A DNA stretch of 64,000 nucleotides, from contig CALUXV010000001.1 of the NCBI GenBank assembly GCA_944324835.1, positions 62,001-126,000 on the forward strand, written 5' to 3'. Position 1 is the first letter of the stretch. Each line of letters begins with the position of its first letter. The translations under genes and the position numbers were made by a program. The notes beneath the pieces were generated by a model, which did not search any database, was not told the DNA's origin, and saw only the letters and a list, made by a program, of their open reading frames with translations. The stretch is from Candidatus Gastranaerophilales bacterium. GTDB lineage: Bacteria; Cyanobacteriota; Vampirovibrionia; Gastranaerophilales; Gastranaerophilaceae. Positions 3,335 through 60,364 of the stretch are shown piece by piece.

Positions 3335-6181
3335 ATGGGAATGTCGTCATCACAAGCTAGACTACTATCTCTGACTGCTCGGCAGCACGATGTCGAATGG
3401 CGTGCTCAACGGCTGCAAGCAGATAAGCTGCGGCTTGCGAATGATTCTGATCGTGTGTACAATACTTATCTGGCGGCCCTTAGCGCCACAAAAATCCAAA
3501 CCAGGATTTATGATGAGTACGAAGGTGATACGTTCAAGGATGCAACTCTAGCAATGCTGGAAAATGGTCTTATTCCAAAAGGAAATCCAGCATATCAAGC
3601 TGGTGTGTATTCTGCAGAACCACTATTCTTGCAGGAAATTTCAACGGGTCGACTTATGATAACACCTGAATATGCAAAAGCTATAGGTGTAACAGGAGAT
3701 AGTCCGACATATAACGGCACGCTTGATGATTTCTTGACAGATGTTTGTGGGCTGACAAAAACAAAGAAGATTGTTACTACAAGGCCAGATGGGTCTTATA
3801 CTAAAGATCCTAACACTCTTCTAAGTTTTACCCCTATAGGAAACATGAGTTATCAGCAATTCCAACACAATTACACTTATGAAGGAGCTATAGCAAATAC
3901 CAAAGGCGATGGCTTTGATGATGAAGAACTTAAACCTTATGCGGAATTTAATGATACTCATAATTCTGTATCCGGAACTCCTGTTTCAGGAGCGTCAAGT
4001 TTTGTTGCAGGACAAACTTATACAATAAGCAGTGCTGCTGATTTAAATAAGTTAATGACATTAACTCAAAGCGGACAATCAACCAATGGTGCAAAATTTG
4101 TATTAACTTCAGACATAGACCTATCCGGTTATACTTGGCACGGAATTGAAAATTTTGCAGGGACATTCGATGGAAACGGATACACTATATCAAACTTAAG
4201 CGGTACACAAGGCTTATTTAAAAATACAAGTGATGCGGTTGTTAAAAATGTAAAACTTGAAAATATTAATGTAAACGGCAACAATATTTATGTAGGAGGC
4301 TTAATTGGTCAATCCTATGATACAGATATTACAAATGTATCCGTATCCGGTTCTGTTAAAAACTATAATTCAAGTAGTTTTTCACACGAAAGAACAGATC
4401 ACAATGAAGATATTGGTACTGGTGGAGTTGTTGGATTCTATTATGCAAGTGGTGGCGAAACATCAACCATTGATAATGTTATGAATCGATGTGATGTTAC
4501 AGGTACCGGCTATAATGTTGGAGGTGTTTTAGGTTGTTACTTTATACAACACCCAAGTTCACATCCTAATTTTAATAATGCATATTCTATAGGAGATATT
4601 ACTGGTGGAACAAACGTTGGCGGTATTACCGGATATTGGAAAGTAGACCCAGATAATAATTCTAATACTGATGTAAGCAATATCTATTCTGGAGGAGATA
4701 TACACGGTAATACAAATGTTGGAGGCTTTACAGGTGTTCTTTCTTGTTGGGATGATAATGGGGATACATTTACATTTACAGGAATTGATACTACTTGTAA
4801 GATTAGTGGCAACGCAAATCTTGGAGTAGTAATTGGAAACAACAACGCTGTCACAAATACAACTAATGCAGACTTTATTGATTGCGGATACGGAGCAGGA
4901 GTAAATCCTGGCATGGATTTAGTTGGTATGGTCTCAAGCGGTACTGCAAATATCCCAACAACAGGTGGAGGATTTGAATCTTTTGAAGTAGCTGCTAAAA
5001 TTCCTTCAATAGAAGCCGATGGAACTGGAGGCTATTATTCAAATATTTATGGAGCACTAGTCAAAGCAGGGGTTATAGATCCAGCGACTGCAAGCGAAAC
5101 AGAAAAAACTCAAATAAGTAATAAAATTAAAGCATTCTTAAATAAATTCAATAATAACGAAGCTGATAATAAAAAATTATATTATTTAAATGAAAAATTA
5201 TATAATTATCTTACCGGTGGTGCTGATGAAGCATTTTCGAACGCCTTAATTGCTGATATCACTGGAGGTACAACAACAGCTACCGCAGCTTGGCAAACAG
5301 GAGCGGATATAGGAAAAATTAAACGTGCAACAGGAGAAACATCCTGGGAACCAACTTATCATGAACAAGCAGGAAAGCTTACAATTCCTCATATAAATAC
5401 TATTCGTCAAAATATTCGTTCTGCTGTAAAAATGGCAGGAGAAACTATACCTGATATTAGCATTGATTTATTCCTAGATAAATATGATTTAACAGATAAT
5501 GCTGATAAAGCATCTTTAGCATATGTTAATGATTTAGTTGTTAATTACGTTAAAAATGGTAAATCTATGCAAGAATTAATTGATGCTTTATACCAAGGTA
5601 GAAAAATAACTAAAATACCGGATTACATTGATGATCCAGCTCATTATACTATTTCCGTCTCCCCAAATGATCAAAGTGGAGATATACAAGCGTCTGAAAA
5701 TTATTTACAAATACCTAATTATGAAGATATTATTACATGGGAATGGGATTGGGAAGATCCAGAAGTTCAAAAAGGTGTCGCGCAATATAATGCACTCAAA
5801 GGTGGCTTTATTATCATCGGAGATACAACTCAAAGTGCAGACTTTGATGGTGTCGGTATGCATCGTAGCGCAGATTGGCTTACTAATGTTATTCAAACAG
5901 GACTTGCACAATTTGTAAGATTTGATTTTGAAACCGGAGAAATAAAAGGTACAAGTATTGCAAATGAAACTTCGTTACTTGAAGTACAAAATAAAGAATT
6001 CTTAAAAACCGCAGAAGCAACTTATGAAAAAGATATGAAAAAAATAAATAAAAAAGAAATGAAAATCGATACTGAACTAGAAGAACTGGAAGCAGAAAGA
6101 ACTTCTATAAAAACAGAACAAGATAGTTTGAAAAAAGTTATCAATGATAATATTGACTTGTCATTTAAATTATTTAGTTAA
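3335..6181 (+). CDS. MG-SQ family protein A, GLUG beta-helix insert
   Basis: A 948-residue protein with three parts. The N-terminus (about 1-60) is a charged helix starting MGMSSSQARLLSLTARQ, without a signal peptide. The middle contains at least six GLUG motifs (VGGLIG, GGVVG, VGGVLG, VGGITG, VGGFTG, LGVVIG) at roughly 33-residue spacing between residues 320 and 500, preceded by a DIDLSG...FAGTFDGNGYTISNL segment typical of extracellular right-handed beta-helices. The last 55 residues are a coiled coil ending SFKLFS. Both ends match the proteins at 37626-38552 and 56601-59294. Conserved ends around a variable middle recall filament subunits such as flagellins; the function is unknown. Many bacterial GLUG proteins are surface-exposed. 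Confidence 0.85.
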   Translation: MGMSSSQARLLSLTARQHDVEWRAQRLQADKLRLANDSDRVYNTYLAALSATKIQTRIYDEYEGDTFKDATLAMLENGLIPKGNPAYQAGVYSAEPLFLQEISTGRLMITPEYAKAIGVTGDSPTYNGTLDDFLTDVCGLTKTKKIVTTRPDGSYTKDPNTLLSFTPIGNMSYQQFQHNYTYEGAIANTKGDGFDDEELKPYAEFNDTHNSVSGTPVSGASSFVAGQTYTISSAADLNKLMTLTQSGQSTNGAKFVLTSDIDLSGYTWHGIENFAGTFDGNGYTISNLSGTQGLFKNTSDAVVKNVKLENINVNGNNIYVGGLIGQSYDTDITNVSVSGSVKNYNSSSFSHERTDHNEDIGTGGVVGFYYASGGETSTIDNVMNRCDVTGTGYNVGGVLGCYFIQHPSSHPNFNNAYSIGDITGGTNVGGITGYWKVDPDNNSNTDVSNIYSGGDIHGNTNVGGFTGVLSCWDDNGDTFTFTGIDTTCKISGNANLGVVIGNNNAVTNTTNADFIDCGYGAGVNPGMDLVGMVSSGTANIPTTGGGFESFEVAAKIPSIEADGTGGYYSNIYGALVKAGVIDPATASETEKTQISNKIKAFLNKFNNNEADNKKLYYLNEKLYNYLTGGADEAFSNALIADITGGTTTATAAWQTGADIGKIKRATGETSWEPTYHEQAGKLTIPHINTIRQNIRSAVKMAGETIPDISIDLFLDKYDLTDNADKASLAYVNDLVVNYVKNGKSMQELIDALYQGRKITKIPDYIDDPAHYTISVSPNDQSGDIQASENYLQIPNYEDIITWEWDWEDPEVQKGVAQYNALKGGFIIIGDTTQSADFDGVGMHRSADWLTNVIQTGLAQFVRFDFETGEIKGTSIANETSLLEVQNKEFLKTAEATYEKDMKKINKKEMKIDTELEELEAERTSIKTEQDSLKKVINDNIDLSFKLFS

Positions 6182-53121: not shown

Positions 53122-55662
53122 CTATAATAAAGTACCTTGTGTAGCCTCACCATCAGTTCCTTCATCTGTTATTGATGAATCTTCAGCAGTTGTTTCCTCA
53201 TTTTTAGAAGGATTAACAATCTTATCTACTGATACAACAGTATCATTATCTACTAGATTTTGCGCTCTAACACCTGTTGCAGGTCGTCCTTGTTGAGAAA
53301 TTGAATTTGCTTTTAATCTTGTAACGATACCGTTTGCTGTAACCATCATAACTTCATCATCTTCATCAACAATAGTTAAAGCAACTAATCTCGACATTGA
53401 TGATTTAAACTTGGTTGCTATTAGACCTATACCACCTCTATTTTGGCTTCTGAATTCAGATAGTTTTGTACGTTTGCCAAAACCGTCCGATGTTACAACC
53501 AATAAATCCGCATCATAATCACGAGGTACAATATCGCAGCCGATAATTGTATCACCGGTTCTGAGTTTCATAGATGTAACACCTCTTGCACTTCTACCAA
53601 GTGGTCTTAAATCTTCAATCGGGAATCGTATCGCCATACCGCAGGCTGTACCTATAATAATCTCATCTTGAGGGTTTGATAATTTTACCCAATTTAACCT
53701 ATCTCCGTCTTCAAGAGATATTGCAATAATACCATTCCTTCTAATATTTGCGAAATTATCTAATTCAATTCTCTTTATATACCCCTTTTGAGTTAACATT
53801 ATTAGATTTGAATCATGTGTAAAGTTACTTACCGGTACAACTGCAGTAATTTTTTCATCTTGTTCAATCGGAAGAACATTTACTATTGGTAAACCTTTTG
53901 CCTGACGTCCACCTTCAGGGAAATCATATACATTTAGAGAATATACAACACCTTTTGAAGAGAAGAACAATACTTTGTCATGCATCATAGCGGTAAAGAA
54001 ATGTTGAATATCATCATCATCCTTAGTCTTCATGCCGCTCTTACCTCTTGTCGCACGGTTTTGACGTTCAAAAGTATCAAGACTTATTCTCTTCAAATAC
54101 CCTTGATGTGTAATGAATACAGCCATAGGCGTATTTGGAGTCAAATCTTCAATTGTTACTTCACCTTGTTCCGGAAGAATTTGTGTTTTTCTGTCATCTC
54201 CGTATTTTTCTTTATCTTCAAGAAGTTCTGCTTTAATAATATTCAAAACTTTTTGTCTGTCGGCCAATATTTCTTCATATTCCGCAATTTTCTTTTGCAA
54301 TTCATCATATTCAGCCTTGATTTTGTCTTGTTCTAAACCTGTTAATCTTCTCAATTGCATTTCAAGGATTGCATTTGCTTGATCAACATCAAGCCCGAAT
54401 CTGTTCATTAAACCGACTCTTGCATCATCAGTTGTTTTGGATTTTTTAATAAGTTCAATAACTTCATCCAAAGAACCTAACGCAATCAACAATCCTGCTA
54501 AAATATGTGCTCTGATTTTAGCTTTCTTCAAGAAGAAAATAGTTCTTCTAGTAACAATTTCTACCCTGTGTTCAACAAATTCGCTTAATACTTCGTACAA
54601 GTTCATTAATCTTGGCTGTTGTCCACATAACGCCAGCATATTTACACCAAATGTCGTTGATAACTGAGTATACTTGAACAAATTATTTTTAACAACTTCA
54701 GGTTTTGCATCACGTTTTAATTCAATAACAATTCTCATGCCGGAACGGTCTGATTCATCTCTTAAATCAGAAATTCCTGTAATCTTTTGTTCTTTAACAA
54801 GATCCGCTATTTTTTCAATAAGCATAGCTTTGTTAACTTGATAAGGGATTTCCGTTACAATAATAGCTGTTCTGGCCTGACGTCCGCCTCCGCCTGCAAT
54901 TTCTTCTATTGTTGCTACGGATGACATTTTAATTGAACCACGCCCCGTTTCATAAGCCTGTTTAATATCATTCAAACCGATAATGGTTGCTGCTGTCGGG
55001 AAGTCAGGACCTTTGATATACTCCATTAACCCTTCAACGGTAATATTCGGATTATCAATCAAAGCAATAGTACCATCCACAATCTCAGATAAATTGTGAG
55101 GAGGGATATTTGTTGCCATACCAACTGCAATCCCAGATACACCATTTAATAAAAGCATTGGTAATCTTACAGGAAGTACTGAAGGTTCTTGCAATGAACC
55201 ATCAAAGTTTGGTACGAAATCAACAGTATCATTATCAATATCAGCAAGCATAGATGTTGTAATCTTATGCATACGTGCTTCTGTATATCTCATTGCAGCA
55301 GCACCGTCCCCGTCAACAGAACCAAAGTTCCCATGACCGTCAACTGTTAAATATCTTGTTGAGAAATCTTGAGCCATACGAACAAGAGCTTCATATACAG
55401 CAGTATCACCGTGAGGGTGATATTTACCTAATACTTCACCAACGATACGCGCACATTTCTTGAACGGCTTGTCAGGAGTCATGCCAAGTTCATTCATTGC
55501 AAATAAAATTCTTCTGTGAACAGGTTTTAACCCGTCACGCACGTCAGGCAATGCACGACCGACAATTACACTCATTGCGTAATCGATATAACAGCGTTTC
55601 ATCTCTTCTCTAATATTGACAGGAACTATCTTTCCGTCTTCGAAAATATTTTGTTGACTCAA
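53122..55662 (-). CDS. gyrA: DNA gyrase subunit A
   Basis: 846 residues: [52 protein letters not shown] (quinolone region; Thr and Glu at E. coli positions 83 and 87, natural in many species), the catalytic Tyr in DARMHK-adjacent [10 protein letters not shown], and a six-blade C-terminal domain. The GyrA-box segment reads [13 protein letters not shown] instead of QRRGGKG. The start codon is TTG, supported by GGAGAAGGA just upstream. Leads the LCP-rseP run. Confidence 0.96.
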
Positions 55663-55839: not shown

Positions 55840-56229
55840 TTAAGCAGATGTTTCAATATAAGAAGTAGCACCTGCAGAAAAAGCTGCTTCATTTGCCATA
55901 TAAGCATTTGCTGCTTGCGCTGTTGTTACAACATTTTCTGTAGAACGGCTGCCGAGTCCGGAAAAATTGGAGCCGTACTCACTAGAGACCTTGGCATAAT
56001 ATTGAGCCATTTCTGCATTGGTAACAACACCATCGGTATTGGTGTCCATCTCCTCTTTATAGAGCGAATCACCTTTAACTGCATAAACACCTTGATCTGC
56101 ATTTGCAGAAGAATCAACTTGGGTATTTTGAGCAGCTGATGGAGCCTCTTTTATGTTTACTTTTGGAGCTGAATTTAACGCTGATTCCGTAAGACTTAAA
56201 TTCAGCATCATTGCAGAAAGATCTGGCAT
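55840..56229 (-). CDS. small protein with a single EF-hand loop
   Basis: 129 residues, Ala/Ser/Asn-rich, no signal peptide. Residues about 62-73 are a perfect EF-hand calcium loop: D-T-N-T-D-G-V-V-T-N-A-E, inside YKEEM...MAQYYAKV helices. One such loop alone binds Ca2+ weakly unless it dimerises. Well-formed promoter and terminator indicate a separately expressed gene. It sits directly beside MG-SQ paralog C and its inverted fragment. Function unknown. Confidence 0.7.
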   Translation of the reverse strand: MPDLSAMMLNLSLTESALNSAPKVNIKEAPSAAQNTQVDSSANADQGVYAVKGDSLYKEEMDTNTDGVVTNAEMAQYYAKVSSEYGSNFSGLGSRSTENVVTTAQAANAYMANEAAFSAGATSYIETSA

Positions 56230-56284: not shown

Positions 56285-56340
56285 GTGTTATAGAAATGAA
56301 AGTTTACAAAAGATAATATTTTAATTTTACATAAAATTCA

Positions 56341-56436
56341 TCAAGTAAATATCTTGAACGTGGCTTGAACGTTATCATCTATAATTTTCTTCAAGGAATC
56401 AAGTTCTGTTTTTATTGCATCTTGTTCTGTTTCAAT
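56341..56436 (-). pseudogene. inverted C-terminal fragment of MG-SQ paralog C
   Basis: Minus-strand reading gives ETEQDAIKTELDSLKKIIDD, NVQATFKIFT and a stop: the same 30 residues as the C-terminus of the gene at 56601-59294, with only a handful of silent or near-silent base differences over about 90 bp. Upstream in frame there is a stop and no start, so it is a remnant. It faces away from the intact gene, so that gene and its promoter are bracketed by inverted repeats. Confidence 0.85.
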
Positions 56437-56517
56437 TCAAACTCAAATAATAACAATCCTTTAATCAAACATCCCTCCCAAAATTGTAACAAATTGTAAA
56501 TAATGTTTTTAATAAGC

Positions 56518-56544
56518 TAATGTTTTAATAAAAAATGCCGTTAT
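56518..56544 (+). promoter_or_regulatory. sigma-28-like promoter of MG-SQ paralog C
   Basis: TAATGTTT (56518-56525), exactly 11 bp, GCCGTTAT (56537-56544). The following bases (ACGTAACATAATA) nearly repeat those after the paralog A promoter. An ATTGTAACAAA site is at 56483-56493. Confidence 0.6.
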
Positions 56545-56600
56545 ACGTAACATAATAACAATTATGTTACTTAGGAAAAGAAAAAGGGAACGTCGTAACA

Positions 56601-59294
56601 ATGGGAATGGCAGCATCACAAGTTAGATTTTTATCATTGCAAAGCCGCAAAAATACAATCGGCTTAAACTTGATGACGCTTTCTAACAGAAAGCTTGCCT
56701 TATCTCGTGATATGAATAGAGTTGCTGCAGAATATAATGAAGCAATGAACCAAAAAGTATTAAAATGGTCCGGAGATTCAGGTATAACTTATCAAGGATT
56801 AAATTATGATTTGTTAATGAAGCCAAACGCTGCAAACTCAACACTTCCTTATATCGTAACAGATGCACAAGGCAGAGTTGTTGTAGATGATAATACTATT
56901 GAACTTGACGGTCATGATACCGGTGTATCTTACCGTGATTTAGCTATGATGATTTCATCATATTCTGGATATAGTGCTGAGGACCAAAAAACACATTATA
57001 TGAATTTTAAAGTTGATAAAACAAATGGTTATACAGATAATTTAAGCGGTGCTGATACTGGAGTTACAGAAGATGATATCAGAAATACAAATGTTACCGG
57101 CGAAAATAAAGCAACTGCTGGTACTGCAAATGAACTTGAATATGAAATTGTATCGACTTCAAATCAATTAGCAAGTAACTCTTTACGTTACGATTTGATG
57201 GAAAAACTTGGTTTGATAAGTAAAACAGAAATAGAACAGATAAATGATTTAGAAATAGAATTGTATGGGCCATCAAAAAACCCTAATGCAGAGAAGTTTC
57301 CTATCGGTACATTAATGGGTAATTATTATCTTGCTCTTGCAAACTTAGAAGCATATAACGTATATAAACAAAATGGAGATTATGTTTATGCTGGAGGTTC
57401 TCAAGACCCTAATGATCCAACTACCGCTACAGGAAGTGCTCCTGATAAAGAAATTATGAGTAATGATGGAACTGCAACAATAACAATAAAAAATGATTAT
57501 GCTCCAACAACAGGAACGAATATAACATTTAATGGAGAGTCATCATATAGCAGTAAAGTCGATTATACTAAAATCTATGATTCTACTACTGGAGATGTAA
57601 CAGATTTAACAACTAAAACCGAAGATATTTATACTGGAACAAATGAAAACTTTAGCTATACAATAGCAGGTGGTAAAATTCAGTATACTTATACGGCATC
57701 ATCATTGATGACTGCTATGGGAAAAGTTGATACTACCGGTTGGTACTCAAAAAAGACTTGGGGAAAAAATCGATCAAATGGTTCAGAAATAGATGGCAGT
57801 ACAACTTGGGCAGATTTAATTTCTCAAAATAAAATGATTGAGACTTATATTAGCAGCAACTTTGATAATGGTAATAGAAGTGAATCAGCATTAAATTCAA
57901 TTGTTGATTCTTTAGCAACGGCTATAGCAAATAATGGAGCTATTCAAATAGATGCTACAGCATTAGATAAAGCTAAGCAAAGTACAAAGGCGTTTTTCAA
58001 TGGTAAAATTACAAATGGCGGGTCTATAAATAGTGATTGGATGCGGCCAGCACACAGTCAATCGACTGTAGAAAAAAAGGCGATTAATAAAGCAGAAGAA
58101 TCTAACTTGATAGGTGGTATGCGTAAGGGGGATAACTGGTTTACCCCTGGAGGTAGAACTTATCAGGCAGTTAGTGCTAGAAACTTATATAATACTTTTA
58201 TAACATTTTATAATTATTATTATAATGCTCCAACAGCAGCAGCCATAGTAGATTCTTCAGTAGGTACTTTTGATAGCGTAAATGTTACCCCAACAACATT
58301 TGACGAAAATTCTTATGATATGGGTTCTAAAACACCATTTACCTACAATGGGCAAAAATATATCAGAATTAAGGTAAAAGATGAAGACGGTTCTGGTATA
58401 GAATCATATGATTATTTCAAAGTAGATGCTTCTGGCAATATCGTTGGCAGTGCTGTTCAAAATGATACTTATGGAACTGATGCTGCAGGAAATAAAAAAG
58501 TGTTTAGAACGATATATAACAATGATGGCTCAGCTAATGGTTATGAAATTCAAGAAACAAATTATAATTCTCAAATTAATGTCGTTGGAGCAGGTTCTGC
58601 TTGGACTCCAAATAGTTCAATTACTGGAGGTGGCAGTGGCGCATCAGCAGTGCCTAGTGGTGACGTTCTCACATTAACTTATACTGATGAAGAAGGCAAT
58701 GCAGTTGAATACAAGTTAGGTAACTTCGTAAAAGATAGTAAGTATGCTACAACGATTGAAGGTTCTGCGGCATCAGATATAACAGCAGATTTGCAGGCAA
58801 AAGTTGATGAAGCTGCAAAAGCAAAAGATGCTGCAATCAATCAATTAGATAAGTTATTTGATGAAAAAGAATCTAAAATGATGGATTACTTTGATTCATT
58901 ATTTAAAATGATTGCTGAAAATGGCTGGGTTTATGATGAAAATGTTAATAATACAGCAAATAAAGAAGAAAGTAAAAATTACCTCAATGCAATGCTTCAA
59001 AACAATATGTACTTTGTAACAGAAGTTGATACATTGGATGGCACAGATTTTAACTATGCAACCAAACTTGCAACAAACGTAAGTAAAATATTTGAAGTAT
59101 ATGATGAAGATGCTCAAAATACGGCACTATCTCAATATGAGGCTGAAAAAGCAGAAATATCATCAAAAGAAAAACAAGTTGATATCAGAATGAATAAACT
59201 TGAAACAGAACAGGATGCAATAAAAACAGAACTTGATTCTTTGAAGAAAATCATAGATGATAACGTTCAAGCCACATTCAAGATATTTACATAA
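56601..59294 (+). CDS. MG-SQ family protein C
   Basis: 897 residues. N-terminus MGMAASQVRFLSLQSRKN, with a helical region to about residue 55 (LSNRKLALSRDMNRVAAEYNEAMNQ). The long middle is Asn/Thr/Ser/Asp-rich, with beta-type low-complexity stretches and no recognised domain. From about residue 725 helices return (ADLQAKVDEAAKAKDAAINQLDKLFDEKE), and the end is the family coiled coil (LETEQDAIKTELDSLKKI ... TFKIFT). No signal peptide or Cys. Composition suits a secreted or surface structure exported without a Sec signal, as for flagellar-type proteins; this is inference. Confidence 0.85.
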   Translation: MGMAASQVRFLSLQSRKNTIGLNLMTLSNRKLALSRDMNRVAAEYNEAMNQKVLKWSGDSGITYQGLNYDLLMKPNAANSTLPYIVTDAQGRVVVDDNTIELDGHDTGVSYRDLAMMISSYSGYSAEDQKTHYMNFKVDKTNGYTDNLSGADTGVTEDDIRNTNVTGENKATAGTANELEYEIVSTSNQLASNSLRYDLMEKLGLISKTEIEQINDLEIELYGPSKNPNAEKFPIGTLMGNYYLALANLEAYNVYKQNGDYVYAGGSQDPNDPTTATGSAPDKEIMSNDGTATITIKNDYAPTTGTNITFNGESSYSSKVDYTKIYDSTTGDVTDLTTKTEDIYTGTNENFSYTIAGGKIQYTYTASSLMTAMGKVDTTGWYSKKTWGKNRSNGSEIDGSTTWADLISQNKMIETYISSNFDNGNRSESALNSIVDSLATAIANNGAIQIDATALDKAKQSTKAFFNGKITNGGSINSDWMRPAHSQSTVEKKAINKAEESNLIGGMRKGDNWFTPGGRTYQAVSARNLYNTFITFYNYYYNAPTAAAIVDSSVGTFDSVNVTPTTFDENSYDMGSKTPFTYNGQKYIRIKVKDEDGSGIESYDYFKVDASGNIVGSAVQNDTYGTDAAGNKKVFRTIYNNDGSANGYEIQETNYNSQINVVGAGSAWTPNSSITGGGSGASAVPSGDVLTLTYTDEEGNAVEYKLGNFVKDSKYATTIEGSAASDITADLQAKVDEAAKAKDAAINQLDKLFDEKESKMMDYFDSLFKMIAENGWVYDENVNNTANKEESKNYLNAMLQNNMYFVTEVDTLDGTDFNYATKLATNVSKIFEVYDEDAQNTALSQYEAEKAEISSKEKQVDIRMNKLETEQDAIKTELDSLKKIIDDNVQATFKIFT

Positions 59295-59434
59295 TGCGTG
59301 TCTGGCGAATCAGTACTAATGGTAGACTAAAGTCTACCCTACATCTCTCCTTAATTAGAAGGCAATTAAAGGTGTAGGTTTAAGAGGTAGTTAATTGTAA
59401 GGAGATGTTATAATTAAATATCCGTACCGATAAG

Positions 59435-59460
59435 AACCTGAAATAAATTCAGGTTAACTT
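59435..59460 (+). terminator. probable terminator of MG-SQ paralog C
   Basis: 8-bp stem (59435-59442 with 59448-59455), 5-nt loop, followed by AACTTTT. Confidence 0.55.
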
Positions 59461-59569
59461 TTACCCAAATAATATTCACCTATTTCCCCCTTTGTAACAA
59501 AAATTTAACCCAAAGTATTGTATTTATAATATGTTTGGGTTATTATTTATTTTGTCAGAAAAGTTAACA

Positions 59570-59671: not shown

Positions 59672-60364
59672 ATGACTGAAGAAAACAAAGAATTAGAAAC
59701 AGCTGTTGAAGAAACTGCTACAGAAGAAGTTACTGTTAGTGAAGAAACTGTTGCAGAAGCAGCTGAAGCAGCAGAAGCTGAAATTGCAGAATCTGCTGAA
59801 GAAACTGAAACTGCTGAAACAGCAAAACCAGCTAAAAGAACTCGTTCAAGAAAGAAAAAAATTGAAACTAAAGAAGAAAAACCAGAATCTGAATGGAAAG
59901 AACAAGTTGTTCAAATCAGCAGAGTTACAAAAGTTGTAAAAGGCGGTAAGAAACTTAGTTTCAGAGCTATCGTTATTGTAGGGAACCAAAAAGGACAAGT
60001 TGGTGTTGGCTGCGCTAAAGCTGCAGAAGTTATCATTGCTATCCAAAAAGCAATCGTTGACGGCAGAAAGAACCTTATCAACGTTCCTATTTTCAAAACA
60101 ACAATTCCTCACCCTATCAAAGCTCGCTCAGGTGCAGGTGCAGTAATGCTTAGACCGGCATCACAAGGTACAGGTATTATTGCCGGCGGTGCTGTTCGTT
60201 CAGTATTAGAATTGGCTGGTATTGAAAATATTCTTTCAAAATCATTAGGTTCTAATTCACCTCTAAACGCAGCAAATGCAACTATCGAAGCGTTAAAATC
60301 TTTAACTCCGTTCGCAGAAGTTGCTAAAAAACGCGGCTTGACTATGTCTGAACTTTTAAACTAG
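59672..60364 (+). CDS. rpsE: 30S ribosomal protein S5 with acidic N-terminal extension
   Basis: 230 residues. S5 proper begins near residue 75 ([40 protein letters not shown]) and ends normally. The first 50 residues are almost only E, A and T (ETATAEE-type repeats), followed by a basic patch (KRTRSRKKK). Such an extension is unusual for S5. S5 acts in decoding accuracy and mRNA unwinding. First gene of the rpsE-rpmD-rplO-secY block. Confidence 0.95.

Follow-up and report, generated by a model that had tools for sequence, protein, structure and literature searches.

An inverted copy of the 3' end of a Gastranaerophilales family gene and its possible origin in a lost divergent neighbour

The locus of gene C and its inverted 3' end

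The window, by which we mean the whole 64-kb stretch of DNA analysed (G000:C1:62001-126000), lies on a 138-kb contig (C1) of a genome of 1.98 Mb, G000, which is 97.4% complete and assembled in 97 contigs. Gene C, which has two paralogues in the window, is located between a 129-aa ORF and a ribosomal protein gene (Table 1). The names gyrA, rpsE, alaS and trmD are assigned from our reading of the translations. No Pfam or NCBIfam model accounts for gene C, and its DNA likeness to the orthologue in the sister genome G003 is confined to the first ~430 bp and the last ~410 bp. The region upstream of the gene is 84% identical in G003, over a stretch that takes in the gene start, and 90% identical in G006 from ~56494. 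Downstream of gene C, we observed two short palindrome-like intergenic elements (59312-59343 and 59427-59458), which recur in this genome and in sister genomes.

Table 1. Features of the window, and dispersed family duplicates in sister genomes (given as contig:position).
Feature	Location	Strand	Remarks
Paralogue A	3335..6181	+	Own middle region with GLUG / M26-like matches
Paralogue B, 308 aa	37626..38552	-
gyrA	53122-55662		Adjoins the 129-aa ORF
129-aa ORF	55840..56229	-	Adjoins gyrA; in relatives a neighbour of alaS, not of gene C; similarity to G003 ends at ~56291
Remnant	56339..56435	-	Final 30 codons of gene C and a stop, in inverted copy (stop codon 56341-56343); start and body absent
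Filler, ~45 bp	56436..56479		Separates the remnant from the conserved upstream region; no likeness to the body of gene C in register comparison
Upstream region of gene C	56480..56600	+	Presumed promoter; conserved in G003 and G006
Gene C, 897 aa	56601..59294	+	N- and C-terminal segments conserved, middle hypervariable
Second arm of the repeat	59200..59296	+	True 3' end of gene C
rpsE	59672..60364	+	Preceded by gene C in G000 only
G003 duplicate	C2:164036-164959 / C3:189147-190070		Dispersed family members
G003 duplicate	C5:61193 / C6:88408		Dispersed family members
G001 duplicate	C46:9386 / C47:8631		Dispersed family members

Sequence comparison showed that the remnant and the 3' end of gene C form two arms of 97 nt each, which are 94% complementary and 2,764 nt apart. 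Using 13-nt seeds, we found no second direct or inverted repeat of at least 50 nt in the window. Translated from the minus strand, the remnant reads ETEQDAIKTELDSLKKIIDDNVQATFKIFT*, with the same residues and stop as the last 30 of gene C. The six mismatches comprise five synonymous codons and a stop codon that is TGA in the remnant versus TAA in gene C, all six being silent. The inner end of the remnant is 165 bp from the ATG of gene C. The earlier note had described a minus-strand copy of the last 30 residues of gene C, inverted relative to the true 3' end and about 160 bp upstream of the gene, and the measurements bear out both its nature and its distance.

Both edges of the remnant are abrupt. 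Likeness to gene C stops 2 bp beyond the stop codon on the outer side and ~96 nt before it on the inner side, just within the last 31 codons. Identity per 20-nt bin was 16-20/20 in the last 99 nt and 4-8/20 on either side, the drop to chance level occurring within one bin at each edge. Between the mismatches, the exact runs measure 13, 26, 11, 23, 14, 1 and 3 nt, with a maximum of 26 nt. Identity to the 3' ends of other paralogues in G000 did not exceed 68%, as compared to 94% for gene C, so the remnant is specifically a C-type end. In the 3'-end alignment, it carries the G003 state at three sites where gene C differs, so that it represents a sister copy rather than a mere decayed piece of gene C. 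Over 93 nt, gene C and the remnant are 94% identical to each other and 89% and 91% identical to G003.

The gene family and its surroundings in related genomes

A C-terminal model built from six C-type ends gave 15-22 matches per genome in the eight genomes of the genus, 138 in total, and in the fetched stretches 133 ORFs had a conserved segment at the N-terminus or the C-terminus. The N-terminus (MGMAASQ...) and the helical C-terminus are conserved in the family and the middle is not; RTX and calpain-like matches were found in the middle of single members. Thirteen of the 138 matches lay in frames shorter than 60 aa. Twelve of these stop at a contig end and the thirteenth is the remnant, which is thus the sole internal isolated family 3' end in such frames among the eight genomes. 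For paralogue B, the predicted model has long terminal helices at a low mean pLDDT of 57.4; a Foldseek search with this model returned 0 PDB matches at E<=0.001, and a profile search against PDB sequences gave a best E of 0.11. The proteins are perhaps surface-exposed or secreted, and we take a flagellin-like architecture to be a lead for the family. The listings and abstract openings covered by our literature search contained no paper that deals with the family, and none on Gastranaerophilales inversions.

Among the eight genomes of the genus, the order 129-aa gene, gene C, rpsE was found in G000 only. The surroundings of the 129-aa gene could be read in six of the seven sisters, all but G006: it faces alaS in five (G002, G003, G004, G005 and G007), and a long ORF separates the two in G001. 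Upstream of rpsE, we found trmD in two of the seven (G003 and G007) and other genes in G002, G004, G005 and G006. The gene before rpsE is variously trmD, a ~1,300-aa gene, a 126-aa gene or gene C, and because of this variation the first gene of the ribosomal cluster in the genus appears to be rpsE. Gene order thus indicates that gene C sits at a rearrangement junction and that its flanks are derived.

The C-type genes of the sisters have other surroundings. Gene C is flanked in G003 by an ABC-transporter-like gene and a 91-aa gene, and it has as its neighbour a 213-aa gene in G006 and an 822-825-aa ORF in G001. One C-type 3' end lies before a 933-aa ORF and another before a UvrD-like gene in G005, one beside a 99-aa gene and another before the UvrD-like gene in G002, and one before the UvrD-like gene in G004. 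Gene C or its 3' end therefore has differing neighbours in G000, G001, G003 and G006 and one in common in G002, G004 and G005; the C-terminal model search gave no strong C-type match in G007. The UvrD-like gene is preceded by a 183-187-aa gene in G000 and G003, and a gene with the same ending faces the ABC gene in G001, G002, G005 and G007. It appears, from these orders, that the edges between the ABC gene, the 183-aa gene, the UvrD-like gene and gene C have been exchanged between genomes. Pfam supports the identities of the UvrD-like and RelA/SpoT-like proteins.

In G000 itself, alaS is on contig C5, trmD on C39, the ABC gene on C8 and the 91-aa gene on C57. No family 3' end was found beside any of the four, with one neighbour of the 91-aa gene out of sight, as its contig starts 577 bp before the matched stretch. 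An inversion between pre-existing copies of gene C was considered as the origin of the G000 junction and rejected, since alaS, trmD and the neighbours of gene C in G003 lie elsewhere in G000 without an adjacent family 3' end.

A C-type match at E<=1e-25 was present in 33 of 288 genomes of the bacterial family, and four of these (G005, G095, G118 and G168) have two. The two matches share a contig only in G118, which belongs to another genus. There, the two C-type genes, 984 aa (-) and 962 aa (+) in length, stand head to head with their 3' ends outward and their 5' ends 1.1 kb apart, the 3' ends being 75% identical over 93 nt. Within this locus (L297, G118:C49, 6604-13559), inverted matches extend over 623 bp at the 5' ends (74%) and 445 bp at the 3' ends (69%). 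The intact divergent arrangement of C-type genes thus exists in a relative, in one genome of another genus and at a different locus. Only one C-type gene was found in each of G003, G006 and G001. The C-type 3' ends on contigs C36 and C5 of G005 are 94% alike and at most 86% alike to any other compared end, and those on C60 and C23 of G002 are identical over the stretch that they share at contig ends. Both pairs have unrelated flanks, the sequences parting 1 bp past the stop codon in G005 and 8 bp past it in G002.

Dispersed whole-gene duplicates accounted for three of the seven family pairs compared in sisters, the other four matching only in parts. One G003 pair is 98.9% identical over 1,480 bp from 117 bp upstream of the start codon, the other 94% over 1,639 bp, and the G001 pair 90.7% over 1,330 bp. 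The homology of these duplicates starts ~80-117 bp ahead of the start codon and includes 220-440 bp of downstream sequence. The suggestion in the earlier note that genes of this family are duplicated, deleted and exchanged agrees with such duplicates and with the differing neighbours of gene C.

Family 3' ends also recur at assembly breaks. Contigs in G001, G002, G004, G005 and G007 often stop inside them, and several contig pairs in those genomes share one stretch and then diverge just past the stop codon. We counted 14 contig ends within family 3' ends versus ~1.2 expected, starting from 28 of the 138 C-terminal matches, chosen by eye as near contig ends and with rounded contig numbers. At L149 (G005:C4, 1-6925) and L165 (G004:C41, 3820-10688), two family genes in divergent orientation flank a RelA/SpoT-like gene. 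Those on G005 contig C4 terminate at the two ends of the contig in the same exact 127-mer, and their likeness over the last 300 nt present is 78%; the 127-nt length is presumably set by the assembler k-mer (k127), and the true shared tract may be longer. Two other G005 contigs end in near-identical family 3' ends. It is possible that the G005 RelA/SpoT-like segment is invertible, and the likeness of the ends suggests that gene conversion of family 3' ends is in play.

A general homogenisation of 3' ends over 5' ends was not supported among complete genes: the best match was in the gene's own genome for 12/83 of the last 93 nt vs 9/83 of the first 93 nt, and for 13/83 vs 9/83 at 150 nt, in a set of 83 genes that omits those at whose ends the assembly broke off. 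The idea that family 3' ends are hot spots of rearrangement was borne out by a modest effect only. The neighbour was conserved at 252/346 family 3' junctions and 292/364 family 5' junctions, as compared to 2443/2864 and 2504/2800 non-family junctions, in counts that are not independent and come from the fetched stretches (1.67 Mb).

Origin of the remnant

On balance, we lean towards the explanation that the 97-bp arm is what survives of a C-type gene that adjoined gene C in divergent orientation and became truncated. The family would spread by copying of a gene together with ~100 bp of upstream DNA, as is seen in relatives, where divergent C-type pairs also occur. A second C-type gene would once have stood head to head with gene C, on the minus strand and with its 3' end towards gyrA. 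The 3' end of the copy may have stayed alike because both genes were functional or through gene conversion. An internal deletion, recent on the scale of species divergence, would then have taken the body and promoter, leaving the last 30 codons and stop beside the promoter of gene C. The relic probably does nothing.

In keeping with a lost paralogue, the remnant is homologous to one end of a family gene and the rest is absent. Its boundary at the stop codon, together with its exclusively silent changes, favours descent from a functional gene, and likeness that ends 2 bp past the stop codon is what one would predict if two coding ends were followed by unrelated DNA. The G118 pair has exactly the arrangement that a lost neighbour requires. 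If all six changes had arisen on an unconstrained remnant, silent changes alone would have p ~1e-4. However, only 1 to 3 changes can be assigned to the remnant branch, as placed by eye from the 3'-end alignment, which gives a modest p of ~0.22 to 0.011, and the constraint argument thus rests on very few remnant-branch changes. No intermediate, either a longer remnant or a full pair at the gene C locus, was found in any genome, one genome per species being compared. Unlike the whole-gene duplicates with their downstream homology, the remnant and gene C share nothing past the stop codon, so a lost neighbour would need a further break, or conversion of the end of an older paralogue.

The main rival, which we consider possible but rather unlikely, is that the inverted copy arose when gene C was brought to its junction, a staggered break, a template switch or a single local flip in that rearrangement having duplicated the 3' end. 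The derived flanks of gene C make such a birth plausible, and it would accommodate a junction found in G000 alone, the location of alaS, trmD and both G003 neighbours of gene C on other contigs of G000, and the want of common downstream DNA; inverted duplications at inversion breakpoints are described in the excerpts of Drosophila papers that we consulted. In contrast to the observed boundary 2 bp after the stop codon, a duplication of this kind should end anywhere, and the copy has no non-synonymous change and keeps the G003 state at three sites. We regard as improbable a wider scheme in which recombination throughout the genome uses the coding 3' ends of the family as its arms. Conversion would keep these ends identical, opposite paralogues would bracket segments such as the G005 RelA/SpoT-like gene, crossover would invert these segments and move neighbours, and the remnant would be a worn-down arm. 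Little credence is given to an assembly chimera, in which the junction, or the remnant itself, would be a product of the assembler. The genome is in 97 contigs and the spacer between gene C and rpsE (59297-59473) holds short intergenic elements that recur in it, but the longest exact repeat between the arms, 26 nt, is far below the 127-nt prefix common to two G005 contigs, and alaS and trmD have continuous neighbours of their own elsewhere.

We likewise give little credence to an active invertible element, in which the population would carry promoter and gene in both orientations through recombination of the arms. With 97 bp at 94% identity the arms are long, and they stand 2.8 kb from each other; in G005 both the divergent genes with the same 127-mer and the two other contigs with near-identical family 3' ends present joins that the assembly did not resolve. 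However, the arms specify identical residues, all their differences being silent, so that an inversion would leave the protein unchanged and carry its promoter along. Homologous recombination over 97 bp with exact runs of 26 nt is possible but should be rare. Contig C1 contains no match to the PF00589 integrase (6 genome-wide) or PF00239 resolvase (1 genome-wide) model, near the element or elsewhere, and a recombinase acting from another contig is possible. Inversion could alter the neighbourhood only, e.g. read-through towards rpsE. Thus, the remnant and gene C are probably not a genetic switch, and a scar fits better than a switch. Of the two readings in the earlier note, the scar of a lost neighbour gained support from the G118 pair, whereas inversion between the arms is possible in principle and no positive evidence was found for it. 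Its expectation that recombination would invert promoter and gene and restore a nearly identical C-terminus is sound in that identical residues would be rebuilt. The inversion reading itself is weakened by the unchanged product, the short exact runs and the lack of a recombinase match on C1.

Significance and comparison with known systems

Taken alone, the remnant is a small scar, and it shows the restlessness of the gene family to which gene C belongs. Within a single genus, the genes of this family, which is unnamed and found in Candidatus Gastranaerophilales, undergo copying, movement and loss, and their ends are sometimes homogenised. It therefore offers a good case for how uncultured gut bacteria diversify proteins that are perhaps surface-exposed or secreted.

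As in the invertons and invertible promoters of gut bacteria, as far as excerpts of the reports describe them (e.g. PMC11892184, PMC10939037), promoter-bearing DNA lies between inverted repeats at this locus. Unlike in those systems, the segment holds a whole gene with its upstream region, the arms encode the same peptide, a flip would be silent and the contig has no integrase or resolvase match. The inverted duplications at Drosophila breakpoints, from what the consulted excerpts convey, are likewise short inverted copies at a rearrangement junction; the remnant differs in that it ends at a stop codon and in that both arms are at one junction. Truncated paralogue copies (pseudogene fragments) are similar in that the remnant is a 3' fragment without start or body, near an intact paralogue and inverted as in a divergent pair. 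In contrast to truncated gene copies generally, it has no non-synonymous change in 30 codons, which suggests that it is very young or was recently converted.
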